Below the pieces are notes generated by a model. It ran no database searches. It saw only the letters and a program-made list of their open reading frames with translations, and was not told where the DNA came from. A program made the position numbers and the translations under genes. From a virus, in IMG/VR virus record IMGVR_UViG_3300035661_000045, positions 1 through 64,000 of that record: DNA of 64,000 nucleotides. The stretch is one strand, 5' to 3'. This document shows, one piece after another, positions 7,731 through 41,057 of the stretch. Positions within the stretch are counted from its first letter, which is position 1. The number at the start of each line of letters is the position of its first letter.

Positions 7731-9134
7731 ATGGCTAATCAGCTATCAAAATTTGGGATGTTAGAATTCCAGTCCTTTAAAGGATTGTCTAAGGAAAACC
7801 ATCTTGGTGCAATGTATTCCCTCGCACCACAAAAAGCTACTGAAAAAATGGTTCAGTTGCTTGCAAATTATAGAGGTAAAACTCTTGAAGATTATTTAAA
7901 ACAATTTCCTATTAAGTATTTCGATGACGATAACGACTTCTACTGGCAGGTGATAGGCAGTTCACGTCGTAACATCGAATTAGTTGAAGCCCGTCATGAT
8001 GATGGCACTATCGTAGATAATTCTGAATTTGCCGGAGTAGCTGGCGTACCATTCTATTTGGTATTTGCAGAAGACTGGTTCGGTAAAGGTGAAGTAATCG
8101 TAGGAGAAAAAAATGAATTATATCAGATTCGTGTTCTTGCAGAACCACGGGCTGAAGGTTCAAACTGGGTTTACAAATGTGAAACAATGGGCGGACTTCT
8201 TGCTGGAATTCCTGCTTCTGAACTTTCTGCTGGTAAACGATTCTCATTTGAATTTGCTCCAGTTGAATCAAGTCGTTCTAAAGGTGTTGGTGCAGTTCGC
8301 TATACCACTCCTACTGCAATGCGTAATGAATGGACTACAATACGTTTAAAAGAACGTGTTCCTGGAAATATGCTTAACCGAAAATTAGCAGTTCCAATTA
8401 CCATGAAAGACTCCAACAATAAAAATGTTGAAAGTACAATGTGGATGCATTATGTAGAAATGAAAGTTGAAGAAACTTTCTCTGAATACAAATGTAATGC
8501 TATCATGTATGGTAAATCTAATCGTAACTCTAATGGTGAATATTTAAATTTTGGAGAATCTGGAGATGTAATTAAGACAGGTGATGGTATCCGTGCTCAG
8601 ATGGAAGTTGCTAATGTTCAGTACTATAATGACTTCGATATTAAATTACTAGAAGATGCATTACTTGAACTTTCTGCTTCTAAATTAGATTTGTATAATA
8701 AAGACGAACGTACATTTATTTTCAAAACAGGTGAACGTGGATTGGTTAAATTTAATAAAGCAGTTAAAGATATGGTATCTGGTTGGTATCCAGCCGGAAT
8801 GCTTACTTCGAGTGTAAATAATCCTGGTGTTATTAGCAAATCTGGAAGTAAAATTCATGATAATGCTTTATCTGCTGGATTCCAATTTACTGAATATAAA
8901 GCTCCAAATAACATAACGATTCGTGTTGAAAGCGATCCATTATATGATGATTTGGTTCGTAACAAAATTATGCACCCCGAAGGTGGTCCTGCAATGTCAT
9001 ATCGTTTCGATATTCTTTACATTGGAACTATGGATCAGCCTAATATTCAGATTGCTAAGATTAAAAACCAAGATGAGATGAGATCTTATCGTTGGGGAAT
9101 TAGAAATCCGTATACGGGAGCAATGGGTAACCCT
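7731..9134 (+). CDS. major capsid protein, exon 1 (residues 1-468)
   Basis: The HK97-fold major head protein of the crAss group. The C-terminal stretch SYRWGIRNPYTGAMGNP is characteristic. The genomic frame would continue to 9161 and end WGLAA, but the conserved last ~36 residues are found downstream at 10009-10119. I propose that exon 1 ends with the CCT at 9134 (GNP) and joins TAT ATG, giving GNPYMSFEEDEAEFHR and a protein of 504 residues. All Trp codons are TGG. The exact splice site is inferred; the split is well supported. Confidence 0.82.
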
Positions 9135-9209
9135 AGACAATATTGGGGCCTAGCAGCGTAATCTGCTAGTAAACTTTTACCAATATCGGTGAAATTTTCG
9201 TGAGTATTA

Positions 9210-9254
9210 TTTGATTATTCCAATTATTTTATTTACCTTTGTATAAATTTATAA
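9210..9254 (+). promoter_or_regulatory. promoter for the intron-borne HNH gene
   Basis: TTTG at 9210-9213, a 20-base spacer, TACCTTTG at 9234-9241, then TTTATAA at 9248, seven bases past the box. It has the same architecture as the phage's other late promoters and lies 25 bases upstream of the HNH start codon. The mobile endonuclease therefore has its own transcription signal. Confidence 0.75.
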
Positions 9255-9265
9255 TATAAAGTAAA

Positions 9266-9823
9266 ATGGAAGAATTTAGGAGTATAAAAGGATACGAAAG
9301 TTATTATGAAATATCTAACTTGGGTAATGTAAAAACATTATATAGTAGATATAAAAAATGTATATTTAAAAAGCCATTTGTAAGAAAAGATGGATATGTT
9401 GTTATAAATCTTGTGAAAGATAATAAGCAAACAACATTTTACTTACATAGATTAGTTGCTGATCATTTTATTTCACAAGATGGAGATATATTGAAATCAG
9501 AAGTTAATCACAAAGATGGTAATAAGCAAAACAATTCTGTGAGTAATTTAGAGTGGTGTACAGTTTCTGAAAATAAGAAACATGCATACAACACTGGATT
9601 GACTAAAATTGGTTCTAAGAGAACTTCAAGCAAACTAACAGAAGAAATTATTTATCAAATTCCACAATTAATTAAAGATGGAATTTCAATAATAAATATA
9701 GCAAAGAAATTTAATGTTTCAAAAACTGCAATCTATCACGTATTAACTGGTAGAAATTATGGATTTTTAAATATTGATTTTGGATATACATTTAAAAGTA
9801 ATAACAAAACAACACCGAGATAA
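9266..9823 (+). CDS. HNH homing endonuclease (NUMOD4 + HNH)
   Basis: A 185-residue intron-type endonuclease. The NUMOD4-like start (EFRSIKGYESYYEISNLGNV) is followed by the HNH motif VNHKDGNKQNN...NLEWCTVSENKKHA around residues 78-110. A C-terminal helix-turn-helix (IINIAKKFNVSKTAIYHVL, about 146-164) should set DNA specificity. The architecture resembles I-HmuI-type enzymes of group I introns in Bacillus phages. It has its own promoter and lies inside the interrupted capsid gene, so it probably cleaves intron-less capsid genes to spread the insertion. Confidence 0.88.
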   Translation: MEEFRSIKGYESYYEISNLGNVKTLYSRYKKCIFKKPFVRKDGYVVINLVKDNKQTTFYLHRLVADHFISQDGDILKSEVNHKDGNKQNNSVSNLEWCTVSENKKHAYNTGLTKIGSKRTSSKLTEEIIYQIPQLIKDGISIINIAKKFNVSKTAIYHVLTGRNYGFLNIDFGYTFKSNNKTTPR

Positions 9824-10008
9824 GTCATAGATTAAAAATCTTTGACCATCGTAACGCATAGGAACTGAAACTACAGTTGTAGAATAAAATGTTCCCACGA
9901 GTGGTAAACACCCTACTGCAAATGGCAGGGGTGAAAATATATGCTAAACTTTAGCAATCGAAAAGCTAAAGAAGTAAGGGATAAAAAGCCTTTACGATAA
10001 TAAAATTG

Positions 10009-10119
10009 TATATGTCTTTTGAGGAAGATGAAGCAGAATTTCACCGCTTCACTCAACTTGGAGTGTTTATTTTGGACCCAACAAGAACAATGAGTATTAT
10101 CCCATCTATTTTGGGTTAA
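10009..10119 (+). CDS. major capsid protein, exon 2 (C-terminal 36 residues)
   Basis: Frame from 10009: YMSFEEDEAEFHRFTQLG then VFILDPTRTMSIIPSILG and TAA at 10117-10119. LDPTRT near the C-terminus is typical of crAss-like major capsid proteins and is absent from the upstream 476-codon ORF. Joined to exon 1 in phase it gives a capsid protein of normal length. The ATG at 10012 could allow independent translation of this fragment, but a 35-residue free peptide would not make a capsid tail, so splicing is the better reading. Confidence 0.75.
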   Translation, partial: YMSFEEDEAEFHRFTQLGVFILDPTRTMSIIPSILG

Positions 10120-10128
10120 TCAAAATAA

Positions 10129-10158
10129 AGTACATAGCGGAGAAATCTGCTATGTACT
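10129..10158 (+). terminator. strong hairpin after the capsid gene
   Basis: A 12-bp stem (AGTACATAGCGG with CTGCTATGTACT, one G-U pair) and loop AGAAAT, followed by TTTAATT. It begins nine bases after the capsid stop. It probably ends or stabilises the capsid mRNA, and lies 16 bases before the Cas12a-like repeat. Confidence 0.75.
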
Positions 10159-10174
10159 ACTTTAATTAAAAAGA

Positions 10175-10193
10175 AATTTCTACTGTTGTAGAT
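10175..10193 (+). ncRNA. solitary Cas12a-type crRNA repeat handle (candidate RNA anti-CRISPR)
   Basis: The 19 bases AATTTCTACTGTTGTAGAT are, from memory, identical to the processed direct-repeat part of Francisella-type Cas12a crRNA. The stem TCTAC/GTAGA closes the loop TGTT and the 5' AATT needed for the pseudoknot is present. The 18 bases before it do not resemble a full 36-nt repeat, I find no second copy nearby, and no cas gene is present. It sits in the 114-base gap between the capsid terminator and the gene at 10234. Its form fits a solitary repeat unit (Racr) that would load Cas12a with a useless RNA. The match is seen; the function is inferred. Confidence 0.6.
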
Positions 10194-10233
10194 TAGATAT
10201 TAAATAATTACATTAACAAAGGGAGAAGAATTA

Positions 10234-11121
10234 ATGGCAAAGAGTAATGAAGTCGAAGATGTGGAATTAGTTTCATGTCTACGCAATGAAAAAGTGGTGA
10301 TTAAATTTGCACCACGACCAAATAACAATATTACCGATCCTAAACATGAGGTTTATGGTGGAATGGCAAATGGCGCTGTAAGGATTTTTACAGTTCAGAT
10401 GCAAAGAAATTTTCAATTAACTAATCCATTGACAGATTCTGAGAAAGCATTCTTAGAAGAATATATGGGCATGGAAAAAAATGCATTATCAATTTATAAA
10501 AAAGTTGATAATTTTTGGCGTAATCAAAAAGTTATATTGAGTAAATCTAATACATATTTAGATTTATCAATTCCAGAAGATTACATTAAATACAAAATTT
10601 TACTTACAAATAAAGATTTAATTTGTCCATCATTAAAAGAATTTACAAATGCTCGTAAGGAAACTTATCAGTTCTATATGGTAAATGAAGATGAGGAGAT
10701 GAAGCAAAATAATACAAGCATGACATCTAAAATGGAAGCTATGCTTGAACTTGGAAAAATTCTTGAGAATAAACAACTACTTAAATTCGTTGTAGAGTCT
10801 ATTACCGGTCGTGGTCTTTCTAAAGCATCTAAGCTTGATATGATTCAATCAGAAGCATTTAAGATTGTTGAGGCTAATCCCAAGTCATTCTTAGGTGCTG
10901 TAAAAGACCCTAATTTAAAAACCAAGGTATTGTTATCAGAATGTGTAGAAAATGGTATTGTAGTCATTAGAAGTGGGTTATATTATACTCAAGATGGTCA
11001 ACCATTATGTGAAAACAATGAAGACTCTAACTTATCATTTGCAGTAAAATATTTAAATAGTCCAAAGCGACAAGAAGTTCGTATGACACTTGAAGCTAAA
11101 CTTAAATCTAAAAAAGAATAA
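10234..11121 (+). CDS. conserved crAss-like virion protein downstream of capsid gene
   Basis: A 295-residue mostly helical, Lys-rich protein in the position always occupied by a conserved structural or assembly gene after the crAss major capsid gene. It has no enzymatic motif I recognise. The middle (residues ~160-235) is a helical bundle-like region. It has an SD-like AAAGGGAGAAG upstream of ATG, shared in this window only with the scaffold gene, suggesting high expression. All Trp codons are TGG. Role in head or neck assembly is inferred from position. Confidence 0.65.
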   Translation: MAKSNEVEDVELVSCLRNEKVVIKFAPRPNNNITDPKHEVYGGMANGAVRIFTVQMQRNFQLTNPLTDSEKAFLEEYMGMEKNALSIYKKVDNFWRNQKVILSKSNTYLDLSIPEDYIKYKILLTNKDLICPSLKEFTNARKETYQFYMVNEDEEMKQNNTSMTSKMEAMLELGKILENKQLLKFVVESITGRGLSKASKLDMIQSEAFKIVEANPKSFLGAVKDPNLKTKVLLSECVENGIVVIRSGLYYTQDGQPLCENNEDSNLSFAVKYLNSPKRQEVRMTLEAKLKSKKE

Positions 11122-17355: not shown

Positions 17356-17931
17356 ATGGCATATCAAAATGATGGATATAAAAGATCCATGAAAATACAA
17401 ATAACAAAACATCCTGATAATGGTTCTCCTGATACTATTATAATTGAGGATGGTCAATTAGCGTTTACACATAGTGGAATTACATATATATCATATGCTG
17501 GAAATGATGATGGATTTAGAAGGTTAACTCATACAGAAGCAGATGATGGTGAGTGAGATAATAGACTATATGCATTTAAGCAGTATATTCAAAATAAATA
17601 CTCAATTTCTGATCCTGGATTATATGAATCTATTACAGGACTTCCATATAGAATTAAAGCTCTAAATATATCAATATCAATTTCCGATGTAATAGGACAA
17701 CAGGGATATATTTATGCATATACATCAGATTCAGTTCCAGATACCCTAACTATTAATGTAAAAGGAGCAGATAATTCTAATATAATTATGACAATAGTTT
17801 CTGGTGATAAACAATCTCAAAACGTTCAGTTAACATCAAGTCAAGGTTCTAATGTTATTGACTTATCAAGTCCAACAGTATCTCCGTATGAAACATTAAA
17901 TGCAACTTATTCAGTATCAATAGTTAAATAA
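17356..17931 (+). CDS. beta-rich protein inserted between muzzle parts, one TGA-Trp
   Basis: A 191-residue protein starting one base after the upstream stop, with a TGA codon read in DDGEWDNRL. The first ~65 residues are polar, with YKRSMKIQITKHPDN and SGITYISYAGNDDG. The C-terminal ~100 residues are Ser/Thr/Val-rich beta strands resembling an Ig-like or BACON-like domain. It ends five bases before the main muzzle ATG. I do not recognise a family. It may form a decoration on the tail or serve in glycan contact. Confidence 0.55.
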
Positions 17932-17935
17932 TAAT

Positions 17936-20900
17936 ATGTCTAATATAATAGGAAAAGCTATTGGAAGTTGTGTTATTAATGAATATTTAATTTTATTTAC
18001 TACTGACAATTCTTCTGATAGAATATACAAAATAAAACCACCCAATGATAGTGGTGTATCTGACATCATTAAATTGGTTGAGTTAAAACTTGGTTTTAAT
18101 GAAAATTATTTAATTCAAACACTTCCATTCTATGAAAACGATAATATTCAAAAAGTTTATTGAATTGATGGGTTAAATCAGCCAAGAGTTATAAATATAG
18201 CAATTGATGATGGTAGAATATTTAATTACACTAATACATCTTTTAACTTCGTTCAGAATCTTGAATTAAATGAAACTTATCAGATAACAAAATTATATAA
18301 CACTGGGTTATTTAAATCTGGTGTTATTCAATATGCAGCAACTTATTTTAATAAGAATGGTTCTGAATCTAATTTATTTTGGATTAGTGACATTAATTAT
18401 ATATCATTTGAAAATAGAGCTGGAAAGATTGATGAAGTTGTTAGAAATGCTTTTAAAATAAGTATAAGTAACCTTGATGATAAATTTGACTATGTTAGAA
18501 TTTATTCTATATATAGGACTTCAGTAGATACAACTCCAGAAGTAAAAAGTGTTATTGATTTAAAAATTCCAGATAATAAATCAATAACTTATGTTGATGG
18601 AGGAACATCTGGATCTATAATATCTACAGATTTCTTATTATATGTTGGAGGAGAGGAATTAATACCTCAATGTATATCTCAGAAAAATAATACATTATTT
18701 CTTGGAAACATATCTTTACCAAATGCAATTACTATTCCATCGACATTACAAACTTATGGAGATGATATTATAGCTACTGGAGTACCAGTTCATAATTCAA
18801 AATTTACTTGGGAAACTAATAATATTGATTTTGAAGGATTGTCAAAACCAACGGGAAACTCAATGTATCCTTATTTACCATTTAATTCAAATATAAAACA
18901 TTTTAAATTTGATGAGACATATAGATTTGGATTACAAGGACAATTCTCTAGTGGCAAGTGATCAACTCCAATATGATTAGGATATGACAATAAGGTAGAT
19001 AAAAGATATTCTACATATTATGATAATAATGGTAGGGTTAAATTGTCATATATAACTGGTAAATATTCTATTGCTGAAAATTTAGTTCAATGAATGTCTA
19101 AGTCGCAACTTGAGGGTGGGCTTGGATTTTCAAAGATTAGACCAGTAATGGTTCCATTAAATTATTCTGATAGAACTATAATTGCTCAAGGTATTGTAAA
19201 TAATACTCTTGGTAATATGCGAAATAGATTTGGGTCTAATAAATTAAACTTACCATTTACATATCCAGATTATTTATTTAGAACAAATGGAAAGCGTAAA
19301 ACATCTTACTTAAATAGCGATGCATATAATGGACAGTATGCTCATTTTGATTTATTAAAATTAAATAACACCTTACAACCAGAGTTGCCATGGAATGATC
19401 CAAATAGATGAATTGAAAATATGGCTAATGGAGATACATGGGATTATCACGATATAAATCATAATGGAACATCTCCAGATGGAAGTGTACAATCAACACC
19501 TTTTGATGGAAAATTTGATAGAGATTTCTTTTTTGTTGATAGAAATATTGTAAATTTTTGGAGTCCAGATTTAATTAATAATACTGATATTTTAAATAGT
19601 TACGTAAAAAATGTTCAATCAGTTGGATTGTATGGATTTGCATTTCAAACAGCATTAAATTCAAATTTTGAAATTGATTTTGGTGATATAACAAATGCTA
19701 CTGGATCTGATCCAATAACTGATCATGAAAATAATTATTATATAGGAAATAATTATCTAAATAATAGATATTGGAAAAGAACATTTCCACTGCTTAAAGG
19801 AGTTCCAGAAAACGATGGTGGATTAAAGGATAAGGATTACATGTGAAATAATATACCAATATGAAGTCCAAAAGATTATGTAATTAGAGTTCCATCAAGA
19901 AATCCAGGAATTGCTCCAGCAGTTTATACAGTTAATTTTACTAAATTAAATAAATCAGGATATAATTATTTTGGATTAAATAGAACTATAAAAAATGATT
20001 TTTCAGATTATAAATATAATATTAATAATCCATATTTAGTATTTAATGATTCGACATTATTTTATAAAAGTAATTCTATTGATAACACATTAAATAATGG
20101 AAGTATATTATACTCTAAATATGTAGAAAAAAATTATCCATCAGATAGTTATTTTAATACAGTAAAATTTTCAGGTAATTCAAATCATCTAGAATTACAA
20201 TATAAATACATAAAGGGTTGAGAAGAAATAACAGACCCCGTTCCAGTGAAACTTGGATTATCAATTAAGTATAATACTAATACTCATGCATTATTTTCTT
20301 TTGGATTAAAGAATAATAAATTTAGTTGTATGCCTAGGTTGCAGAATAATACTCCACTAGATAGTGTATCTTATGAGGATTTTCAAAATCCAGTAAATAC
20401 TGATTGGTATAGGGTTAAGTCTGCTGATTTTAGAACTGATATAATAAGTAGGAATTCGTTAAGTGATCCTATGTCTATCAATGATAATACTAGTCTTAAT
20501 ACATTACCAATATTTGATTTATATAGCAATGTGACTAGTGATACTAGATATGGAGGATTAACTGCTGATGCACTTTATAGTAACACATGAATACCTTGTG
20601 GAGATTCCATTAAAATTGGTGATAATGCTGTAGATTTAAAATATACTATTGGTGATACATATATTAGTAGATTTGATATGCTAAGGGTATTTCCAAATGA
20701 CATATTACAAATACCACAACATACAGAAATAGTTTCATTTATATGTGAATCGTTTACTAATTCAGATGGAAGAAGTGATGTAAATAGATATAATTCTGAT
20801 AGTTCTTTAATGACTACATCTAATTATGGATTATTCAATAATGTATATTCCCAGAAGAATAATTATTTTAGTTATAATATATTAGATCCATTATTATTTA

Positions 20901-22006
20901 ATACGACTAATTTTAGCAATACTATAATTTGGAGTAAAACTAAAATTGCTGGTTCTATAAATGATGCATGGACTAATCTAAATATGCTGAGTTCGATTGA
21001 TTTAGATGGAGTATATGGAGATATATCTTCAATAAATCTATTTAACAACGATTTATATGCATTTCAACCTAAAGGTATAGCTAGACTATTATTTAACGAA
21101 AGAGTTCAACAGCAATCATCTGATGGAGTTTCCGTAGAGCTTACTAATGGTTATAAAGTTCCAGAATATAGATATCTAACAAATCAATATGGATGTAATA
21201 ATAAATGGTCAATAATTGAAGGTAAACAAGGCATTTATTTCATAGATTATATCAATAAATCATTAGTATCTATTGGTAATGGAATTAAAGATTTAGGATT
21301 ATCACTTGGATTTAAATCATGGTTTAACGAGAATACTGATGGAAAAAATTATACTCTATCTTATGATAGAATTAATAATGATATTTATATTCATGATGAA
21401 ACTAATTGTTTAAACTATTCTGAAACTCTTGGAACTTTCGTATCATTCTTTGATTATATTGACATTCCTCAGATGAGGAATGTTTGAGATAACTTTATAT
21501 CATTAAGTTATAGTGATACACAAGGAAATACTACTCAATTATTTTCTGAGGATGATTTAAACAATGTTGTAGATGAGTTTGAAAATAATATAGTGTCTGA
21601 AGATTCTGATTTAAATAGAACTTCTATATGGCTTCATAACAAAGGTGAATATAATATGTTCTATGGTAATCAAAAACCATTTAGCATTGAGTATATATTA
21701 AATCCAGAGCCATTAAATGATAAGGTATTTAATACATTTGAATATAGACTTAATGACCAATTAATTGATTTGAATAATGTTGTAGTATCTAATTGGTATC
21801 AAATTGGTGAATTGAATTCAAATCAATTTAAATCCAATATGAAACGTAAGTTTAATGTTAATAGAGTTCAATTACCAAGACAGAGTAATTCTTTAAATAG
21901 AATACGATCAACATGGTCTAAATTAAAAGTATCTCATGAGATAACTGATATCAATATTAATAATAAATTTGATATGCAAGATTTGAATATCACTTATACT
22001 ATTTAA
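17936..22006 (+). CDS. tail muzzle/tubular protein, main body, about ten TGA-Trp
   Basis: A 1,356-residue protein, continuous only if about ten in-frame TGA codons are Trp (for example VYWIDG at 18161-18163 and QFSSGKW near 18960). Early residues SCVINEYLILFTTDNSSDRIYKI and NIQKVYWIDGLNQPRVINI are signatures of the large crAss tail protein that forms the muzzle (P22 gp10-like). The rest is beta-propeller-like with repeated Asn/Tyr/Asp motifs. It lacks the usual first ~60 residues, found at 16977. Ends before a strong terminator. Confidence 0.85.
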
Positions 22007-24529: not shown

Positions 24530-26383
24530 ATGCCTATAAGTGCTTACGATCAAATAAATTATGCTGCATACAAACCTTTATCTACTCAAGAAATTTGAGC
24601 TCCTGGTCAGGCTATTCGAGAACAGCAAGATAAACTTTCAGAAGAATATTCTAATGCAGAGCAGATTGCTCAACAAGGATTTTCTGGATTAGATCCAACA
24701 ATAGATAAAGCTGCTATAGATACTCAAAAACAATTTATGGATCAAACTAAAGCAGCAGCAGATGAATTAGCAACTAAAGGATTCATTGATTCTGGTAGAC
24801 GTAGAAATTTATTACAATTAAAATCTATATATGCAAATCAAATAGTTCCACTACAAAATGCTTTAACTCAAAGAACTCAAAGAGCTGAAGAATATCGTAA
24901 ACTTAGTATGGATAAGAATAACATACTTGGAACTAATCCAAATGATGTATCATTAACTGACATTATTGGAAATCCAAATGCATTAAATTATAGTTTTTTA
25001 AGTGGTGCTCAAATGGCTAAAGATGTTGCTAATGAAGCTAAACCATTTGCTGATAGATTCAATAATAAAGATGTTAAAGATTATGGTGCTAAGGTTGGAT
25101 TTGATCACTTACTTGCAATAAGACAAGGAGTTGATCCGACAACAGTATTAGCCGCCATGAAAAATGATCCTAGAGTTATGGGTACTGAAGGTGGTAGAAA
25201 AGTGTATGAACAATTAGTTGGCATAGTAAATTCCGTTACTGATAGATATGGTTTGAAAAACATCGCTACTACACCAGAGGAGTATAATAGAGGTTGACAA
25301 ATAGCATCATCTGGACTATCTGAAGCTATAGGAAAGGTAACACCAATGCAAATGCATGATGATAAGGGAGCCTTTAATTACGAGCAATCATTAAAGAACA
25401 GTACAAAATCAAATCCAATTATATTTGGGAATGATATGAATACAAAAATATTTGATGAAGGATACACCATGGATGATTTAAATAATATATCTGAACTTAA
25501 AACTCCAGAATTTAATAATGATGGAAATTTCAAAAGAAAATTCAAAAGCTATTTCAATGTAATAAATAATTCGTATCTTCCAGATGTTGATTTTGGGGAA
25601 AAGTCTAGGGCAATTACAGACGCATATAGATCTGCAAATCATTTACCATCAACAATGAATGATAAATCTGTTTTTGAAAAAATGCAATCTGATATTAAAA
25701 CAAAAGATTTATTGATAAACAAAGCTAAACAACATAATTATACTCCAATAGTAGATGTTCAGACTGGAAAGCAAATATTATCTACATTATTTTCTAATAT
25801 ACCATCTGCTGAATTCGTTGATTACACATCAGATTATAAGGGAGATTCTTCGACTGGAATAGACTATACAACAATAGCAAAAAGATCTGGATTTTCTAGT
25901 GGACAACAATTATTAGATTATATGGATAAACATCCAGAATTAATATCAAAGAATAATACAGATGGTAGATTTATGATGCAAATACCATCTAATGTTAATG
26001 GTGTTGATAAACAGGGAAATCTTACATTTAAAAATGATGTACCAGAATTTAAACACATAGGATTTGTTGATACAAACTCTCACAAAGTAAGTGTTAATGC
26101 TATTAGTAAAGTTAGAGAAAGAGAATCTGAAGGTAAACAAGACGAAGTAGAGGTGGCGTCTAGACAAGTTCAAAATAATGGAAGAATTTATACAATTAAA
26201 TCATTTCATGATGGAAAGTCTAAAAAAATCATAGAACAATTATATGATAGTAATGGGAATAAAATTAAAACTCAAGAAGAATCTGTTGATGGATTTATAA
26301 ATGATGAAAATCAAAATATATATCATGGAGAGATTTTAAATGCATACCAAATAGCACATCAAAAAGATAATAAATCAGAATAA
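24530..26383 (+). CDS. virion cargo protein 2, TGA-Trp
   Basis: A 617-residue helical protein with ATG overlapping the preceding stop region (ATAATATGCC). Two TGA codons are Trp (TQEIWAPGQ, NRGWQIASS). It has ATKGFIDSGRRRNLLQLKSIY near residue 80 and a long charged C-terminal half. Its position between cargo protein 1 and the giant RNA-polymerase protein matches the second cargo/ejection protein of crAss-like phages. No catalytic motif seen; role inferred from synteny. Confidence 0.7.
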
Positions 26384-26384
26384 T

Positions 26385-29300
26385 ATGAATTTATACGATA
26401 AAACACTTGGATTAGATGTTGAACCTATTGGAGATTTGAAATATAGTAATCCAAACATAGTAAAAGATCCATCTGAATTTGGACAATTAAAGATAAATAA
26501 CTACAAAAATCAATGAAGAACTGATCCAACAATGCAAGAAAATGTTGGACAATTCTTTAATAATCAAGATGTAAATGATAAATATCTTAATAGAGAAAAT
26601 ATTACATCTGGAGATTTAAATGATCTTAATGAAGTTCAATATAGAAATCAAACAACTGGAGAAGCGTGGAGAAATGGATTTGTAAGTAGGGCTTTATCGG
26701 TAATTCCAAAAACATTAAATATGCCAGGAGTTGTTGGTGGTCTTGCTGCTAGTATAGGGGACTATTTAGTAAATACCATTGATCCAGATAAAAAAAGTAA
26801 TTGGGCCGAATCATTAGATCATACATACAATAACTTCTGGGTAAATGCAATGAATGATATTGATACTGGTCTTAGAAATGCTATGCCTGTTTATGGAAGT
26901 AAAAATAATTATGGATCTCCAAGTTTATTAAAAAATATGAGTTCTGCTAAATTCTGGGCAGATGATATGTTGGATGGTCTTGCATTTACTGCATCTGCTA
27001 TGATTCCTGGAGCTGGTATAGCTAAAGGTCTTCAAGCATTAGAATTGGCTGGAAAAGCTAGTGGTATATTTAAGGGCGCCACTGTATTAGCTAATTTAGG
27101 CAAAACAGCAGAAGCATTGACAGAAGCTCAGAAAGCAGCAAAGGGAGTTGATTTTCTTACTGAAGCATTAACAACTGGAGTTAATACAATTAACGAGTCT
27201 GCACTTGAAGCTTATGGAGCTGTAAAGGGGTTGGATGAAAATCAATCCAAACAAACCTTATTGCAAAATGATCCATTATTAAATAAAAGTGCAACAAGAA
27301 TATCTCAATTAGAAAAACAATATGACTCACTACCAAATGAACTTCCAGTTACGACAAGTGAAGGTGTTGTAATACCGACAAAAAAAATGCTTTTAGCCAA
27401 GCAAATAGAAGAAGAATCTGCTAGTTTAGAAAGTAATTTAAATGATAAATGGAAAGAACTAAAAGGTAAAGTTGGATTAAATGTTTTTAATTGAAATAAT
27501 GTAGTTCTTCTTGCTCCGGATTATCTTCAATCAAAATTATTTACAAAATCATTTGGGGAAGCAGAAAAAGTTATAGATAGAATTACTAAGGATGGTGGAA
27601 AAAGTGCAATTGTAGGGTCTTTATTAAAAAATGCAGCAAAAGAATTTGGTATTGGAACTTTACGTGAAGGTTTCTGGGAGGAAAATGTTCAATCTGCAAT
27701 ATCCAACTATTACCAAAGTCAATTATATAATAAAAGACAAATAGACAAAGATGATATAAGTTTTGTAGATAATCTTCTTAAATTTGGAAGTGACGATTTA
27801 AAAGATATATCATCTAGTATGGGTCAAAACGCATTAGATTTATTTGAAGGTAAGAGTACTGATGGTACTAGATCTATATTTCTTGGTGCTGCATCTGGAG
27901 GATTAACATCATCTGTATTTGGGGCACAACAACAATTTCATGATAATAAAAATGCTAAATTAGAAGAAGCTAAATGAAATGAAGTAAAAAATTGGTCTAA
28001 TCAAGCAACATCTATGTTTTATGATGGGTATAAAGATATTCTAGATAAAGATGGAAACGTCTCTATGGAGAATATGATCAAAACACTTACATATACAAAT
28101 CAGAATAAATCATCAATAGATAAAGATCAAATGTCATTACTAACAGGTAATAATGTTGTTGGGTCTTTACTTAAAAATGATGAGTTAGCCAAACGGTTTT
28201 ATCAACAAATAGCTGAATTAAAAAAAGGTAAATTTAATAGTCAGGAAGAAGCAGTAGAAGTATTAAAGAATAATATAGAGCAATTAAAATCAGGAGAAAA
28301 TGCAGATGAGGATACGGCCAAAAATGTAGATTTCTTTTTATCTAAGATTGATAATTTATCAGAAAATTGGACTAAGGCTAGTAAACAAATAGATTCAATA
28401 ATAGATAATAAAGATGAAAACTCAAAACTTCATCAAGATCTATTAACTAAAACATTATTCTTTGGAATGAATAAGATTAATGAGATTGATTCTATATTAA
28501 AAGAAAATGAAGGTAAAATTTCAGATAAGCAGAAACAATCACTTGAAGATTTAAAAACCTCTATATCTAATTCCATGGAATTATTTAAAACTCAAGATAG
28601 TTTAAAAAACATGTCTGATGAGTTTACTCGTTCTGCAAATTTATCAACAGAATTTAGAAATAGGGCTAATGAAGAATTAAAAAAACCAGAAGCTGAAAGA
28701 GATAATAATTTAATAAATAGTTTAGAATATCAAGCAAATGAATTAGATGATATATCTGGCCTAATTGCTGATGAAAATAATAAAACATTTAATTCTACCT
28801 ATGGATTTGATTCATTCAAGATGTCTTTAAGTCCTACAGATGTAATAAATAGAAGTAAACTTGGTATTAGAGATAGATATTTCTATGATATCGGAATGGA
28901 TGCTATATCTAAAAATAGATTGAATGATATTCTTACTAATAAGGATTCTTCAATAGATGATATAGTGTCATTTGTAAAAAGTGATTCTATGCACTATATA
29001 AATGAGTCTGATAAAGATAGAATTAAAAAAGCACTAGAAGTGCGATTAAATAAAATTGAAGATACATCTGAAGCTAAGAATGATTTAGATAAATTAATGA
29101 AAAATGCTGGATTAGAGTTTAATGATATGGATATGATTGTAAAATCAAAAGATATTAAACCTACTCCAGAATATGAAGCTAAAACTAAAGAAGAAAAGGT
29201 AGAGTATCTTAAGTTTATTAATTCATTAAATGATGAAATAAATAACTCTGGAGATAGACTTAAACAATCAATGAAATTAGTCGATGAAGTTGATAAAGTT

Positions 29301-32300
29301 TATTCTAATAGAGATACAGAAAGAACTGAATATTTAGGTTCTGAAGAAAATGCACATAAAGATAGTTTTGTAACAAATCTTCGAAAAAGAATAGCTAATG
29401 AATTTCTTAATAAGACTCAGGCATTATCAAAAAATATAAGTGAAGATGATTCATTTTCAAATACTGATTTATTAAATAAATTAATTAAAGAATTAAACAA
29501 TAGAATTAGCGTCTTTAATAATAGTGAATTTCACAAAGATTTAATTCCTGGATATTCAGATAAATTAGTAAAACTTAGAGATGAGATAGAGTCATATAAG
29601 GTTAAAGCCGATTTAAATAAAAACAATAAATCAGCATTAGATGAACGTATTAAACGCGATAATAATAATTCCCATATGAATGCGTTAGGTTTATCTTTAG
29701 ATGGTACAAAAGTATCAATTATGGATAAAAGTCTTACAGATGCTATTAAATCAATTGTAGGAGATGCTTTATGGAATGAATTAATATCAGGCTTAGAAAC
29801 TGATGGTAAATTAGGAGACTCTATCTTTGTGGATAGATTTATGTCAAAACTATCAGAAGATAATAAATTAAAGGTTGTTGATGTTGTAAGTAAAAATAAC
29901 GATATAGTTAAATCTGAATTAAATGATATATTCAATTCATATATTGATAACAACGTAAATAAATCTAAAGAAAAATTAGTTCAAAAGAATTATTTATCAT
30001 CATTCTTAGATAATCCCGAAAGATGTTTGTTTGGATTGTTCTCAAGATTAAAAAGCGATGGCAAGACAATACTTAAAGTTTCAACAGAGAAATCCACTAA
30101 CAATAAAAAAAGTATTCTTGATAAATTCTTAGTAGACAATAACCTTGAATTATTCTTAGAGAATGTAGAATTGGATACAACTGAGTTGAGTATATCTAAT
30201 AAAAAGTTTATTAAAGGACTTCTTGAGAGATTAATTAAAGTTAGAAATTCTGCAATAATATCTGAATCATTATCAACAAGTTCTAATATGAAGAATTTTG
30301 TTGAGACTGAAGAAAAGTTAGCTAAAGAAAATCAGGGTGGTATAGCTCCATCAAATCAACAAAGAGATGTTATTAAACGAATATTTAAGTGGTTTGGTTT
30401 AAACGATGTTGATAAAGCTAATGGATATTCTTCTATATTATTATGCAATGGAATAGCTGGTACTGGTAAAACTACTGTTATAGCAAAACTATTATTCAAA
30501 ATACTTTCAAGAACAGATAATATTGATGTAAATAAAAATGTTACAGTTGTAGGTAGTAATAGAAATATAGCTGAATCATTGGCTAAAAATATATCTAAGA
30601 AGAATGATTCTGGAGTGTATAATTTTGAAGAATTTTTATCAAGTGCAATTAGTTCTGATTCTAAAATCATAGTATTTGATGAAATAGGTACTCTTGATTT
30701 AAATGACATTAATAGACTTAAAGAAAAGATTGAAGATATTAATAAAAATAGAGATCAAAAGAATTTAATAAAAGTCCTAGGTCTTGGAGACCCCAATCAA
30801 GTTAGAGATACAACTTCTGATATAAAATCATTTTTTGTAGAGCAGATACCTGACTCTTCATTTGAATCTAGCAAAATAAAATCATTACCGTCATTAATAG
30901 TTCAGTACAGAAGTGATATTGATGCAATAAATGATGCTGCTGATGCTTTTAGCGGAAGATCTACTTATCCTAAATTTGTAATAGCTAAAGCTAATACGGA
31001 GTTAGATTCTATTAAAGAAGATCCAAAGGGAGTTCATGCTGTAAAATCATTAGAACAATTTGCCAAAAGGATTTCTATTGCATTAAAAGGTAATAGAGAT
31101 GGGGGTAGAGTTACTATTGGATATAATACTGATAGCGAGTTAGCAGATTTAAAATCTGCAATAAGCGCAGAAGATCAATCTAAGTGTGATTTCAAACACT
31201 TTACAGATATACAAGGAAGTACTCTTGATCAAATATTTATATACGTACTAAAAGGTGGAGTTATAAATCCAGTACAAGGTGGCGTGTCCGAGGTTGTTAA
31301 GTCTAGATATAATGCTATAATGTATATGTTATTGTCAAGACCCAAGGAATATGCTTGCGTATATAATGAAGACAATACATTTACACAAGAAGTAGACTCG
31401 TTCTCGATGGAAAGTAAGACTACTAAGAATGTAGAGCAAATGCTTAAAGCTAAAGAGCAATACACTAATACTGTAAGTTCTGAGTCTGCAATTATGGATA
31501 ACAAAAAAACTACTTCAAATAAAACTACATCACCAAAAGAAGATACCGTAGAACCAATAATAGTTCCAACAGAAACTACAAAAGATGATGAAGATTTTGA
31601 GCAGAAAGATTTTGATGATGAAGAAGAAGATGCTACTAAAGAGATTGAAAAGATTGAAAAGATAAAATCTGAAATAAATAAAAAAGCTGAAGAAGCAGAG
31701 GCGAAGCAACAGGAAGAGTCCAAGAAAGAGTTAATAAGCGATGATGAATTAAATCCAAATACAGAGCATATCTCAATAGAAAACACTACCAGTGATACTA
31801 TTAAATCATCTGGTATAAAAGCTGGAGATGAATTAACTGTAAATAAAATGACTTCTAAAGGCAAAACTATATGGGGTCTATTTGCTAAAGTTGGGGATGT
31901 ATATCATCATGTAGCCAGTTTAAGCATTAAAGAGGCTTTGGCTCTTGGATTGCAAGAATCTAATTTCGGAAAAGGTTCTATAATACAAAATTTTGATGGT
32001 ATTTATAAATCTAAAGATGTTGAAAATACATTTGCTTTAAAAGATGGTAATCAAATTAAAGTGGTTGTATCAAAAGACCCGACTACACTTACTATAAAAT
32101 ATGATCAAAATTCACCCATGTCAGGAAGTGGCTTTATCAGTAATGTAATAGCCTCTATGGCAGTTGCGTTTAATAAAGTAAAAGAAGGTTCAACTGTTCA
32201 GATGTTCCTTCCTACAATCAAAAATATGGGGCCTGGACAAGAGCATGCAGACTTACCATTAAAACTTGGAATACCTTATTTAATCATAAAGTTTAATGGA

Positions 32301-35300
32301 CTCAAAAAAATGTATGTTAGGTTAGAACCTAAAACTTTTAATTCTGAATCTTCTTGGAATACATTTAGTGGAAAGAATGCATATAATGTTTTAAAATCAT
32401 TTACCAATGGCGTTGAAGCAATTGAAAATTGATTTTCTAATAATGGCATTTCAACCAAATTTGGTGATTTAGATTTTGGGATATTAATTAACCTTATTGC
32501 ACAATCAAAATATATAGCCAAAAATAGTGATAATACAATATCATTTGTAAATCAAGATGAAAATTCATTTGAAAAATTATTAACAGATAGTCCAATTACA
32601 CAGCGTATTGAAAATATGTTTGGTAATGATATAAATAAGTTTAAGAATTTTATCAAAGAAAACGAACAATCTATTGAGGACATAATTAATGCTCACTATA
32701 ATGTTGAAGATAAAGCATCTGAAGTTAAATTAGATCAAAATGCTGAAGATGAATATGGTTTTTCAGATTCATTAGATAACTTTGACTCAAAGATAACTAA
32801 ACTTGCATCTGTATTTAGTTCGATTTTAAAAGGCATTCCAATTAAATCTATAAATGAAGATTTTGTTAGAGAACAATTTGGTATAACCAATATAGATGAT
32901 ATTACTGAATTTATAAAGATATTCAAGAAAATTAATATTGATGAAGCATTTAGATTAACTAATTTATGTTCGGATGCATTTAGAAATAATAAATTATTTT
33001 CAAAAGGAGCTTCAGAAAATATAGATGCAAATAATAAGACCGATGTTCGTAATATAAGAGAATTATTTAAAATAATATTAAAAGACAATAGAATTCTTGG
33101 AGTTCAAAATACAACTCAATATGAATGACTTCCAGAGATAGAAGATGGTAAAGATAGAGATGGTAAAACTAAATATAAAAAACATGTTGTAGTTGCCAGA
33201 AATGTTAATGAAGCAAATGTAAGAGATGTCAAGAAAGATGTAGTTGTTACTTCTAAGAAGATTGGTTATAGACATAGTGATATTCAGTCTGTATTAAACA
33301 ATATAGTACTAGCTAATAAATCCATCAATAATAAAAATTTTAGAACAAATAGAACTTTAGCTGAAATTAAAAATGGTAGTTCAAACAAAACTAAAAAGTC
33401 TGTATCAGTTATGAATACAGACTCAGATTTTTTTGTTGATAAAAATGCAGAAGCATTTGATAAAACTATTGATATAAGTTCAGATAAAAAAATTAATGAA
33501 AATTTAGATGCTATTAAAGCTAATTCTGAAAGTTATACATATAGACTTGATGATTTAAAATATCTGTTAGATAATAACAATAAAATCAAACGTAATATAG
33601 ATGCTAATGAAGTTTCAGATGCAAACAAATCAGATAATTTTGACAAAATGGAAGATTTGACTACAACTAACTTTAATGGAGTTACCAGTACATCGCTAAT
33701 TGTTACTAATGGTAAATCTAAATTAGAGTCAAATGAAACTATAAAATCTGAAGTTAAAAAAACTGAAAAACCAATAGATGAAGTTGCTGATATAGATGAT
33801 TTATTACTTGAGAAAGATACTGAATCAAAACAATTAGTTGGTAAAGAAATTAAAATTAATTCTGCATTAGATTATCTAAAAAGATTGTTTCCGACAGAAT
33901 CAGAAGATGTATTTAAATTTCTAGAAGCTGTTAGAAGTGGTGATAAAAATGTTTTTGGTAGATTTGTAAATGGTATTATTGAAGTTGAAAAAGCTTCATC
34001 TGATACTGTATATGAAAATATTGTTAGACATGAGGCATTTCATAAAGTATGGAATGAATTTTTAACTCAAGAACAACGCAATTCAATTGTTGAATCTTAT
34101 TTAAATACACTTACAGAACAGCAAGAGAAAGAGCAGGGCTTATTTGGGCTTCCATTAGAACAATTATCTAAGATACTTGAAGAAAAGATAGCTAGAAAAT
34201 ATCAAGCATATAATAAAAATCAAGATAAGAATTATGGTTTTATGCAGAAATCTCTATTATATCTTAAAGATGTATTTAGTAGATTAAAAACAATGCTTAC
34301 TGGGCGTGCATCTGACATAGAACATTATTTTAATTTAATTGATGGTGGATATTTTAATAGTCAATTTGCAAACTTTAGAGGAACTCGTGGATATTATGGT
34401 ATTCAAGAAGATTTTGGAACTGTTGATAATTATATAATAGCTAAACAAAAAGTTGCTGATATATTTGCACATATATCTTCTCTTGGTAGAAATGGTAGTT
34501 TTATTCCATTTTCAGAAACAGAGATTAATGATTCTTTATTGGCTACAGTTAAATCTTTACTTGCAAAAACTAATAATATTGTATCTAAAATGGATGTTAA
34601 AAATCTATCAGAACAAGATAAAATTAATTATAACAAGTATTTAAAGAACATAGAAGCTTATGAGTCTTTATTGAGGACTAATAATGGAACTAGATTTCCA
34701 GTATTAGTTAAGATGTTAAATGAAATACTTCCTGGTCGTAGTGAGAATTCTATTATAAATAATAATTGAGAAATTGTTAGGGATGGAAATGAATTAAATA
34801 TGGATGATATTGAAGAAGATTCTGATGTTAAGACTGAAAATTCTGAGGGTACAGTATTGTCACCATTTGCGGTTAATTCAAATGAGGTTAATCAAGAAAC
34901 TAAATTATTTGCAAAAATAAAACATTTTTTGATGACTATAAAAAATCTTAATGGTGATTTTATAAATAACAGATATGCATTTATTAGGGTGTTTCAACTA
35001 ATGGAAGGACTTAATAATGATTTAAATTCAAATTCCAAATTGAATATAATGGATCAGATTGCTGCTGTTTTATCTAAAAGTATTACTAAATCAAAAACTC
35101 TTAATGCAGTAGAATTAGAATCTCAATATGGAAATCGTTCTGATGTAGCTATATTCTCAAAACTTAAAGAAATTTATGAATTAGCATCTGCTATTAATTA
35201 TCCATCATTTATATCTAATTCCAATAAGGATTTAGTGAATGTTCCTATTAGAAATGACATTAAAGTATTTTTAGATAAAAATGGAGATATATCTACAATT

Positions 35301-38300
35301 GCATATTCTAAAGATGGTTCTGAAATAAAAGAAAATTCATTAATAGATATAAATAATAATAATAAAATATCTATTATAGAGAAGATTAATGGTGAGAATC
35401 AAAAGGAATTTGCTGAAAGAGCATTTAAATCTACTTTTGGATATAATGAAAAATCCAATATAGTCGAGATGTCTGCTATTATGCATAGAGAATTAGCTCG
35501 TAATAAATGGGTAGAAATACAAAATACATTTAATTCATTAAAGGAGGAAAGACTCAAAATTGTAAAGAATAAGAATGATAATAATAATATGACCATCTCA
35601 TCAATAGATGGTCAATCATCTTCTAAGAATATAACACTAATTGGTGCTTTAAAGAATAAAATATCAAATAAGTTTAAAACAATAGAAGATTTTAAATCAT
35701 TTATATCTGAAGATAAAAAATTCAGTGATCCATCAATTTATGATAGTGTAAAAAACGATGTAGAAAAAACAAAAGAATATGTTCTTGACTTTCTAAATAA
35801 AATTGGGATTACAAATATAAAAAATATTTCTGGTAGTGATATTAAATATGCTGATTTAAGAAATAATATATATAATTTCATGCGTACAAACGCATTATCT
35901 GCAATAGAAAAAATTGAAGCCAGTAATAAATCATCTGAATTTGATGATAGTTCAAATTTATTAAATGATGACCTGAGAATGTCAGATGAATATATTGAAA
36001 AATTATTTGAAGATGAAGGTGGTATTTTAGATTCTATATCAGACTTGGTAAATCCAGAAGATAATCAAAGTGTTAGTTCTACATATAGGGATGCAAAAGG
36101 TAAGAGATTGTATATGACAGTTCCTACATCATTTGCAAGTAAGATATTTAAACAGTTAGGAATGATGAAATTATTTTCAAAATTCATTAATTTACCACAA
36201 TATCTTAATACTGAATTTATGAAAAATAACATTATACAAAAAGGTCTTCAAGAGATTTATACATTTAAAATGCATAGTGGTATTTTAAATACAAGTAAAT
36301 ACACCGATGATTCAGTTGTTGAATACGATGGAGAAGGATTTTCTCAGTTTGTATTGAGAACATTCTTAGCTGACTTTTTATCAAACTTTAAGAAATCCAA
36401 AAAGAATGGTGAATATACCTATGAACAACCAATATATGTAAAATCCAACAGAAAAGATTCTCAATCAGCAAAAGTAAATGTATTATCATCTAACAATATA
36501 TTGGAAACTATATTTCCTACTATATTTAACCAGATGATGAAACAAAATATATCCGATGAATCAAGATGGGAAAATTATAGTGTTGATTCATTTGTAAACA
36601 TGAAAAGATTAGAAGGTGCATTAAGAGATGTGATTGGTGAAAACTATAAAAATATTTTTAGAGAGATGCTTTCTAAAAAACAATCTTTTTCAGATTTTAC
36701 ATCAGAACAACAATCTGCAATTAAGGAAAATATAAGAAAACAATTTGAAGATGAATCTAAATTGGTAGCTAAAAAGATTATAAATGAAAACATACAATTT
36801 GATGCTAAGACAAAAGATATAATCAAAAATCTTCTTATATTTAATGGTATGTCAGAAGTTGATGCAAAAGGAATTATTAAAGATTTTTCTGAAAATCAAT
36901 CCAAGAACAATAATGCAAAAACTAATAATACTGGAGTTTATTCTAACAAGCCAGAGATGTTTGAAAAAGCTCTTGAATTATTCTTAATGAATAACTACGT
37001 TAATTCATATGCAGTTACACAATTAGTAACATCAAATAATAATTTCTTTAAAGATGGAACATCATTATTAAAACGTATGTCTGTTGTATTTGGTCCTGGA
37101 TTATCTCCTACGGTTGGTGATTTGGGAATGAGACCAACAGCTAAAGTATTAGTAATAGATGATGTAGATTACAAACCATCAGATAGAGCAGCAATGATGA
37201 ATGTAGCTGGTTTTTCTAAAAGTGATATAGATGCAGTATTAGAAAAGGGAGGTGATGGCGTAACTGAATATGCAGATGGACAAGGATTTATAACTCCTAA
37301 ACGTCATGAAGAATTAACTCGTGGTTATGGTGCTTCATATAAATTATCAACAGTAGGTAAGCCATTATGGTACACTATTGATGATAATGGAGTTCCTCAT
37401 GCAATTAAATATTCATGAGTAGAACTTACAGATCAATTAGTAAAAGATAATCCTCAATTAGCTAATTTAAGAGATAATATGGATTCTCATGATATTGGTG
37501 AGGCTGTATTTAAATCAGCAGTTAAAGTTGGTATTCCTAAAGGCACACACACATGGGAAGAAGCAACTTCAAGTAATTTAAATGTAAATAATTCATCTAC
37601 TATGACACTTAAAAACGCTGATTATAGATTACAATTAAATCCAGCACATGACTTTGGTGAAAATCATGTATCAATTCCTACACAATTAATGTATATGCTT
37701 AATATATATCATGGTAATGAAGAAAGAGCTATGAATTCATATGGTGCATATAATAATATTATTAAATTAGGATTATCTACCCTGATGGATTCTTTATCAA
37801 ATAAAGGTGTTCTTAGTGAATCTAAGATATCTAAAATGGTATTAAGGAAATTAAGGGGTTCTAATTCTGCTGAAATTGAGGCAGAAATGTTTTCCAATGG
37901 TATATCGCAAGATTTTCCAACATTAAGTGATAAAATAGTTAGTCAAATAGCGTCTTTATTTTCAAAAAATACTATATCTACCAAATTCATGGGTGGAAAG
38001 ACTGTTTTACAAGCTTCTGTTGGCGTTAGAAATAGAGAGGGTAATGAATTATCATATAGTACGGAGAATATTAATGGTAAACGTCATACAATTTCTGAAG
38101 CTTTAATTACTCGTGATATGGCTCAAAAGACATTACCAAAAGAAGTATTTGATTATTTAGATGAATTCTTTTCTAATCCAGAAAATAATGGTAAATCTCC
38201 AAAGGTTGCTATTGTTGGTGGTGATATGTTAGGGTTTCGTATTCCATCATCCGAAATACATAGTGCTGTTGCACTTAAAATTGAAGGATGATTTGAAGGT

Positions 38301-41042
38301 ACTGGTAATAGTATTATAGTTCCCAAATATATCGTAGAGATCCATGGTAGTGACTTTGACGTTGACTCACTATTTATTATTGGTAGAGAATTTATCAAAG
38401 ATAAAAATGATAATATTTTAAATTATAAGAAAGTTGATGGCAAATGAGTGTTTAATTCTTTATCACAAGACGAAATTAATAATTTGTCTTATGGTGAAAA
38501 GATGAAATATTTCAAAAGTGTTATCACCAACTCTATATTAGATGCTACAGTTGATCCTACTAATACAGTAAGAATGCAATCTCCTATTACAACAAAACAA
38601 TTAAGCGATGTTAGACAAGAAATTTATAATGAAACTGGTACTAAAGCAACTAAAAAAGATTTAGATAATTCTGATTTTATGGAATCGTTTGAAGCTCATC
38701 AATCATCTCATAATGGTTCTGCTGGGACTGGTATTGTTGCCAGTGCGTTTAAAACAATTGCGTATGCTATACGAGCCGGAGAAAATAACGAGATTCCAAC
38801 TGTAAAAACTACTGGACAACAATTAATAATTGATGGAAAATTAATTAATAAATTATCAAATAAGTTGGAACTATATGAAGGACTTGATTCCTTGGTAAAT
38901 GCTGCTATTGATAATGTAAAACTTCAAGTACTTCCATTCTTTAATTTAAATTCAAATACATTTTCTACATTTATTGGAATGATGGCAATGGATGGTGTTG
39001 GTTTAAAATATGCAGCTAGAATGTCAAGGCAATTGTTCTTTAAACAAATAGCTGATTATAAATCACCAACTTCTAGAGATTTTGGATTTAAACAAACAAA
39101 TGTATTAATTGAAGAATTAAGACAATTAGTTGAAACTGAGAAATCATCTGAAGCTGATAGAGCTACTTATAAAGATTTGACATTGCAAGAACTTAAAGAT
39201 TCATTGAAGTTTGCAGTTGACAATAACTTGTCTTCATTATCAGAATATATAGCTGATTTAAGATCTGGTAAAATAGAATTATCTGAAGAGCATAAAGATT
39301 ATATTAATTCTCAAATAAAATTTATGGAATATTTTAAAACATTTAAAAAGATAGGTGGTGATTTAACATCATTATCTGGATATTTATCTATAATAAGAGA
39401 TATGCCTACAACACAACTTGAAATTGAAAAGAAGTTGGACGTTGAAAATGATATATTTGAAAAAGACGATAACGGAAATATGGTTTCTAAGGATAATTTT
39501 TCAATAGATCTTAAAAATTTATTTCAATCAGCACCTCATATTAAATCTGCATCTGAAGTATTACATCAATTAAACGATGTAAATAAGATGTATATATTTA
39601 AACATGGTCCAATAGTAGAATCACTTATAGATGATATTAAAACAAGTCCAGAGGCTGTTAATGAATCATTAAAACCAGATAGTGAATTAGAAGATCTTGA
39701 AAAATCAAATTCAAGTTCAATAAAGGGTGGAAAAGATTCAGAAATATCTATGAGAGATGAAGTTATTAGATTTTTAATGAATTGTGTTAATTGAGATCCA
39801 GATTTCAAAGGTTATGATTCTATACCAGATGCTAGAATAAAAGTTAACAACAAGGAGACTAAAGTTTCTGGTATTGATGCTTTTAAGAAAAACTTCGGTA
39901 AAAAAGTAGAAGCTATAATGAGTTATTTAGAATCTAATAACATTCAAAATAGGTTTATGAAGGAATTAGTTGGTACTGTAATGGCAAATACTATTATAGA
40001 TTGGAAAATGCCTCGTTCTGTTGAGTTTAAATCAGATGATATTATTCAATTAAAAGCTGAATTTGATAAATTAAGTCAATACGATGTTGTATTTGAAGAT
40101 GGTAAATACAAAGTAGTTCCTTCAGAAAATTTAGACTATAAAGAATGGCAAAAAGATTTTGTTAGATATGGAATATCAGTTAATGGAATGTCATTTGGTG
40201 CTACTAATTTTTCAATGGCACTTCCAGATGAATTATACAAACCAGTGTCTGATGGACTTGAAAATCTTATTAATAAAATAAAATCTGATAGTACTGTTTT
40301 GATGAGAAATAAATTAAATTTCTTTTATCAATATATAATGAATAATCCAGAAGTTATTAAACTAGCTTATTTAAAAAAGATAACATCTAATGGTAAATAT
40401 TCAGGATTTGCAGAAATAAATGGTCAAACTCATTTTTATGACATGCAACTTGAGTCTAAATCCGAAAATGATAAATCTAATTTATTAATAAGACAAATTA
40501 ATAACAATGGAAAATCATTTATATATAAACTAATTGGAGTTAATAATGGTTCACTTTATTATGTAAAATTAGGTGCTGAAAATCCATCAAACTTTTATAA
40601 TATGTCAGAAAATTTATTTTTTAGTGCTAATGGTGATTTTTATATTAATACAAAAATTCCTTCATTAGCTGTAATAAATAATAATGATAAGGAATTTAAG
40701 CTTGAAGGTAAGAATGGAAAAGAAAATGATCTATTATCAATGCTTAAAGCCAAATATGATAAAAATCCTTTTATTATTGCAGTACATAATTATACAGATG
40801 TAATGAGAACTGGTTCTAAAGAAGTTGTTGTTGAAATTAAAGGCAATAAACTTGTTGTCGTTGATGATAAAGTATATAAATCTACTGTTGAAGAAAAAAC
40901 AAATGAAATTAATGATAATTCATTTGAATCAAACAAAGACAATATTCTAAATAAATTCGCTGAAGAAACTCAAGAATCTTGAGATGCTAAAAGTGATGAA
41001 ATTAAATCTGAATTAATTAGACAAATTAACGAGGGTTGTTAA
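26385..41042 (+). CDS. giant 4,885-residue virion protein: SF1 helicase-like, zincin and RNA-polymerase modules
   Basis: One frame of 14,658 bases, open only if about eleven in-frame TGA codons are Trp; it ends TAA at 41040. N-terminal helices include hydrophobic ASAMIPGAGIAKGLQALELA. An SF1-type motor lies at about residues 1330-1690: Walker A GIAGTGKTT at 1356-1364, DEIG at 1432, GDPNQV at 1468, VQYRS, and LSRPKEY. A zincin-like HEAFH is at 2549-2553. The RNA-polymerase catalytic loop DFDVD is at 3990-3994 (38352-38366), matching the DxDxD loop of crAss-type virion RNA polymerases such as phi14:2 gp66. It is probably injected to transcribe early genes. Several processed chains are possible. 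Confidence 0.85.
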
Positions 41043-41057
41043 TCAATAAAAATAAAT

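Follow-up and report, generated by a model that had tools for sequence, protein, structure and literature searches.

The window, that is, the whole stretch of 64,000 nucleotides analysed here out of a 78.7-kb viral record, contains a major capsid gene that is followed by a non-coding gap of 114 bases (10120-10233) running from the capsid stop to the ATG at 10234. As the initial annotation had described, a terminator-like hairpin and, 16 bases after it, a 19-nt element resembling the handle of Cas12a crRNA lie in this gap. The features of the region, all on the + strand, are the following:

7731-9161, +, major capsid protein, first exon and read-through (exon 2 at about 10013-10119)
10129-10158, +, terminator-like hairpin 3' of the major capsid gene, ending 16 bases before the handle
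10165-10170, +, ATTAAA, left copy of a 6-bp direct repeat at the insertion
10171-10204, +, 34-bp segment present in the window lineage and absent in eight close relatives, placeable anywhere from 10165
10175-10193, +, Cas12a crRNA handle AATTTCTACTGTTGTAGAT (UCUAC stem, UGUU loop, GUAGA stem)
10194-10198, +, TAGAT, repeating the final five handle bases in tandem
10194-10217, +, would-be guide segment UAGAUAUUAAAUAAUUACAUUAAC
10199-10204, +, ATTAAA, right copy of the 6-bp direct repeat
10234-11121, +, gene with the handle in its leader, corresponding in position to the gene for an annotated double-stranded DNA-binding domain protein of cr112_1

The junction of the capsid exons was placed by comparison with the relative L026. 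The capsid protein shares 57-60% identity with its counterparts in crAss-like (Steigviridae-type) phages, among them cr106_1, cr112_1 (Steigviridae) and the PhiCrAssBcn phages, and the neighbouring genes match PF25650 crAss_AuxCP and PF25710 ring protein, which together place the carrier phage in the Crassvirales. No anti-CRISPR gene was recognised among the annotated neighbours of the handle. The capsid gene was broken by an intron-like insert (about 9138-10012) with a NUMOD4/HNH endonuclease ORF (9266-9823), in which Rfam recognised no group I or II intron, and the capsid genes of the relatives contained inserts elsewhere, after 7951 and 8589. The capsid terminator has kept its stem in the relatives, where both arms differ together (GTACAT/ATGTAC versus GCATAT/ATATGC). 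TGA is probably a sense codon in this phage: the frames 17924-22006 (1360 codons, 10 TGA), 26355-41042 (4895 codons, 11 TGA) and 41043-45566 (1507 codons, 15 TGA) are open only with TGA as sense, and in-frame TGA is also present in the capsid gene of a relative (L028 record).

The identification of the 19-mer as a true handle was borne out by both sequence and fold. The match to AATTTCTACTGTTGTAGAT is exact, including the unpaired AAUU and the final U, and the UCUAC-UGUU-GUAGA hairpin is present in the minimum free energy structure of the entire 121-nt leader. Folding of this leader was much stronger than that of its shuffles (z -4.66), which we attribute mostly to the terminator, and the folding energy of the handle alone was not exceptional (z -0.9 to -1.5). 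The number of exact copies expected in 64 kb from base composition was 3.6e-6, in agreement with the earlier estimate of far fewer than one, and 0.07 copies were expected when up to three mismatches were allowed. The element is also solitary, as claimed, with a single copy in the whole 78.7-kb record when up to two mismatches were allowed; no second repeat and no type V-A array (at least two repeats with spacers, and cas12a nearby) was found near it in that record. With Rfam, neither the gathering threshold nor a relaxed one yielded a relevant hit. The 17 bases 5' of the handle were no more repeat-like than shuffles (P 0.67), so the match is limited to the processed handle, and the 36-nt context does not amount to a full V-A repeat. 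An origin of the handle from the capsid intron, which contains CTACAGTTGTAG, was rejected because the AAUUU part is missing there. The tandem TAGAT after the handle was also observed in L211, L261 and L269, and handles are often trailed by such a copy or by a repetition of part of their 3' half (the window, L211, L261 and L269; L005, L236, L248 and L249).

The same 19-mer forms the 3' end of V-A array repeats in more than 50 bacterial genomes among the matches listed. Its array copies numbered 17 in a Phocaeicola (L126), 18 in a member of the Bacteroidales (L135), 31 in a Porphyromonas (L157) and 51 in a member of the Flavobacteriales (L093), and the proteins adjoining the arrays in L126 and L135 have 1242 and 1207 amino acids with five Pfam Cpf1 domains each. 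The Bacteroidales arrays (L126, L135, L157) thus share with the window handle the 19 nt at the repeat 3' end, but differ from it in having 17 more repeat bases, many copies and a cas12a gene (shown for L126 and L135). In the Bacteroidales sample, four of 295 genomes gave a match (the chosen centre, one other array and two single hits, of which one lay at a contig end), indicating that V-A systems are present but rare in this group. Comparison of 1099 V-A spacers with the phage gave only chance-level matches and no host link.

Relatives were fetched through ORF 10234-11121, and the leader was readable in eight of them (L026-L032 and L034); L033 had no comparable leader. The protein of these eight is 93-95% identical to that of the window, and their DNA is 82-92% identical over most aligned stretches and 75-77% in some. 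All eight retained the capsid end, the terminator and the leader without the handle, which is the outcome that the initial annotation had named as speaking against its reading. The generic handle pattern AATTTCTAC-N3-6-GTAGAT was likewise found in none of 50 crAss-like records searched whole. The leader of L032 reads CTTTAATTAAATAATTACATTAAC and that of the window CTTTAATTAAA + AAGAAATTTCTACTGTTGTAGATTAGATATTAAA + TAATTACATTAAC; from this alignment, the handle is a gain made whole, in sense orientation and in one clean 34-bp step. The exact placement of the 34 bp is ambiguous because ATTAAA stands at both ends, and inserts drawn at random with the local composition would show an end ambiguity of at least 6 with a P of about 0.006. 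The sole other contig with the element (L004/L025) is 100% identical to the window over 12.8 kb and so represents the same single lineage, which makes conservation unusable as evidence. Since the relatives keep the flanks without the element, conservation lends no support to function; absence in relatives is equally expected of a recently gained element of an arms race, and function is not thereby excluded.

The restriction to one lineage, the late operon and the lack of a recognised promoter are also what would be expected if the 34-bp segment had been acquired recently, by template switching or patchy recombination with the handle of another phage, and were drifting, not (yet) functional, in a tolerant AT-rich leader; the 6-bp direct repeats suggest a one-off duplicative event of this kind. 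We regard this explanation as rather unlikely, because what arrived was exactly and only the part bound by Cas12a, in sense orientation, and like elements recur in unrelated phages.

This recurrence was evident among 2.9 million viral contigs, which are often fragments and may include prophage-bearing host DNA. The 19-mer was found at 23 loci, versus two and none for two control hairpins of the same letters and architecture, these counts resting on exact matches and hence being biased to intact handles. After removal of near-identical contexts, 16 distinct TGTT-loop sites remained, of which 12 lay outside ORFs of at least 100 aa, and loops with A, C or T replacing G gave 79 further loci. A few viral matches lay inside long ORFs, probably by chance (L002, L006, L014 and L024). 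A chance hairpin, or an ordinary regulatory stem-loop of the leader with no tie to Cas12a, would account for such matches and for the 0-2 loci reached by the controls, but it does not account for the intergenic excess (about 12 distinct loci versus 0-1), for the 4e-6 copies expected in the window or for the exact unpaired AAUU and final U, and this explanation, already disfavoured, is very improbable.

The class was defined as 59 distinct intergenic viral handles, whose 17 upstream bases were compared with 66 V-A repeat prefixes. Clearly repeat-like upstream bases were found in seven of them (L214, L221, L247, L252, L254, L258 and L275), and about 52 lacked the remainder of the repeat, as expected if selection acts only on the part bound by Cas12a. 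Judged from these comparisons, the handle-only form is the rule among the 59. The Bacteroidetes -7 box TAnnTTTG started 10-17 nt upstream of seven of the 59 handles, compared with a mean of 0.45 and a maximum of 4 at random intergenic places (1000 draws); from this position, transcripts would be expected to start with the handle's first base or close to it. In co-directional gaps, 28 handles were sense and 8 antisense (binomial P 0.0006, with genes called by a simple longest-ORF rule). For the window handle, no TAnnTTTG box was present within 60 nt upstream, and no + strand sigma-70 match ended in 10120-10175, although sequence cannot judge read-through or crAss promoters.

The sense bias and the promoter placement of the class point to RNA, and thereby away from a role of the element as DNA, in which it would serve as a repeat-like site for Cas1-Cas2 integration or for phage insertion into arrays, or would be the scar of an off-target spacer integration. 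The 6-bp direct repeats that bound the insertion would suit such a role, and CRISPR-repeat-like sequences with other roles have been mentioned (PMC10651486). Nevertheless, only 19 of the 36 repeat bases are present, the first repeat half is absent, and the inserted DNA is a handle and not a spacer, which makes the DNA-level role scarcely credible.

The products of PHROG-annotated genes 3' of the handles include portal (L208, L248), major head (L277), head-tail adaptor (L281), tape-measure-like (L016), tail (L261) and Erf (L017) proteins, and no enrichment of structural genes is claimed. L236 is a second, distant crAss-like phage (capsid 34%), in which a promoter (TATCTTTG) and a handle with an ATT loop lie in a head-operon leader, between the presumed gene for the portal and the next head (scaffold) gene; in its relative L295 a similar TATATTTG box precedes the next gene, with no handle. 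At one and the same leader site in the family of L227, L227/L306, L308 and L244 carry the handle and L307 and L309-L318 lack it. That the handle comes and goes at one leader site in the L227/L244/L262 family and is intact where present (in a sample biased by exact matching) also argues against a recent gain devoid of function. A second empty-site pair was sought among the relatives of L277, which were too distant.

On a tentative reading, which we would sooner doubt than assert, these handles would form a widespread class in phages, with minimal 19-nt Cas12a handles placed in mRNA leaders, often of head genes, where abundant structural messages would capture Cas12a; the class would be gained and lost by small insertions and missed by whole-repeat searches. 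The position of many class members in leaders before virion genes, and of the window handle between terminator and ribosome-binding site, could also mean that the phage uses host Cas12a as a processor or regulator of its mRNA: a cut at 10174/10175 would split the downstream message off from the capsid terminator, or the downstream gene would be repressed. This is improbable, since such a use would depend on a host that has Cas12a, and the relatives do without the handle.

We favour, with a probability of about 0.58, the interpretation that the window element is a handle-only mimic of Cas12a crRNA which acts as an RNA decoy, similar to the RNA anti-CRISPRs known as Racrs but carried on the leader of a late mRNA. 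Cas12a processes precursor RNA by a cut immediately 5' of the handle, which it grips tightly, and the 20-24 nt after the handle occupy its guide channel. Transcripts that continue past the capsid terminator and enter the next gene would have the hairpin in their 5' leader, and host Cas12a would recognise the handle and cleave just 5' of AAUUUC (10174/10175). The enzyme would then remain bound with the phage leader in its guide channel, where no PAM-bearing target would be matched, and every such inert complex would take one Cas12a out of immunity. Transcription, capture of Cas12a and benefit to the phage are all inferred. The initial annotation had taken the 24 bases after the handle as a pseudo-spacer; they would indeed fill the guide position, but they are mostly ancestral leader, common to the relatives from 10199 on. 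Window sites sharing the first 8 bases of this segment have at least 7 mismatches each, and its own DNA site has AGAT in place of a TTTV PAM, so self-targeting is not expected.

The decoy is supported by an exact handle far beyond chance with 23 loci against 2 and 0 for the controls, by its gain as a whole and in sense orientation, by intact Bacteroidales Cas12a genes adjoining arrays with the identical handle (L126, L135), and by the recurrence of handles in phage leaders, including that of L236. The class adds the prevalence of the handle-only form, the TAnnTTTG boxes, the sense bias and the promoter-handle-terminator units of L022, L113, L215 and L225, and the published inhibition of MbCas12a by V-A Racrs also speaks for it. 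Against it stand the absence of the handle from the eight close relatives and the 50 crAss-like records, its confinement to a single lineage, the rarity of V-A systems in Bacteroidales and the lack of a match among the 1099 spacers. In addition, no promoter belonging to the element was found, a late structural leader is a poor site for an early anti-CRISPR, and Cas12a on the handle would sit near the ribosome-binding site of a gene of the phage itself.

Racrs are RNA anti-CRISPRs derived from solitary repeat units and include RacrVA1-3 (Camara-Wilpert et al. 2023, PMC10651486); inhibition of Moraxella Cas12a (MbCas12a) by the V-A members has been established experimentally, and the decoy principle was demonstrated for RacrIF1 (PMC10651486). 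In both sequence and fold the window handle corresponds to a known CRISPR repeat, of which the first half is absent here, and it is solitary and intergenic with no second repeat within 100 bp. Like RacrVA1-3, it is a solitary mimic of a CRISPR repeat in a phage intergenic region; unlike them, it consists of the 19-nt handle only and belongs to a late structural leader, with no own promoter found. The earlier proposal of a Racr against Bacteroidales V-A systems is supported in part, in that Bacteroidales genomes with Cas12a use the identical handle and V-A Racrs are published, but has lost the support of conservation and lacks a recognised promoter. The element is best called Racr-like, with the same proposed way of working and membership not established. 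RNA anti-CRISPRs, including those against V-A, are known, and the variant here is the handle-only, leader-carried form. The bicistronic RacrIC1-AcrIC5 RNA is likewise a Racr on a longer phage transcript (PMC10651486), but its partner is an anti-CRISPR protein and that of the window handle a conserved gene of the crAss-like structural region. Viral CRISPR mini-arrays (reviewed in PMC11656645) are also repeat material in viruses, but the window has no second repeat or spacer, and the bases downstream are mostly the phage's own leader.

IMG/VR3 has already been searched with SRUFinder at a published final cut-off of 41.1 bits. An exact 19-nt match scores 38.2 bits with blastn-short parameters, so handle-only elements would usually fall below the cut-off and would probably be missed, although a library repeat sharing at least two extra upstream bases could pass it. 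Handle-only search terms would expand the known set of RNA anti-CRISPRs. No report of crAss-like phages with a Cas12a anti-CRISPR RNA was found in the open-access literature. If the decoy interpretation is true, crAss-like phages use a leader-carried handle as counter-defence, for which 34 bp inserted into a leader that is already there can suffice, with neither a dedicated gene nor a dedicated promoter. Among close relatives, the filled and the empty site form a natural pair for studying the origin of RNA anti-CRISPRs.

Several other arrangements were observed among the viral handles. In L234, L270 and L209, the V-A handle is followed on its 3' side by a TGTGAATTGCT..AAATTAGTATCTT-like sequence, which presumably recalls Bacteroidetes type II-C repeats; the strict II-C repeat pattern was found in none of 56 Bacteroidales genomes. 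In L216 and L224, two V-A handles are separated by only 40-42 bp, which leaves too little room for a normal spacer-repeat unit, and they are possibly tandem decoys. Apparent two-target cassettes were seen at L218:2659-2677, L229:5703-5721 and L239:9354-9372 (- strand), and in weaker form in L231 and L267, with the order promoter box, type I-C-like repeat (GTC-hairpin-GTGGATTGAAAC), V-A handle and terminator. Arrays with the I-C-like repeat end GTGGATTGAAAC were found in Bacteroidales, and from their sequence these cassettes may be bispecific RNA anti-CRISPRs. Compact promoter-handle-terminator units, which resemble textbook V-A RNA anti-CRISPR genes, were present at L113:2499-2517 and in L022, L215 and L225, and one such unit lies on a [Clostridium] symbiosum genome contig.
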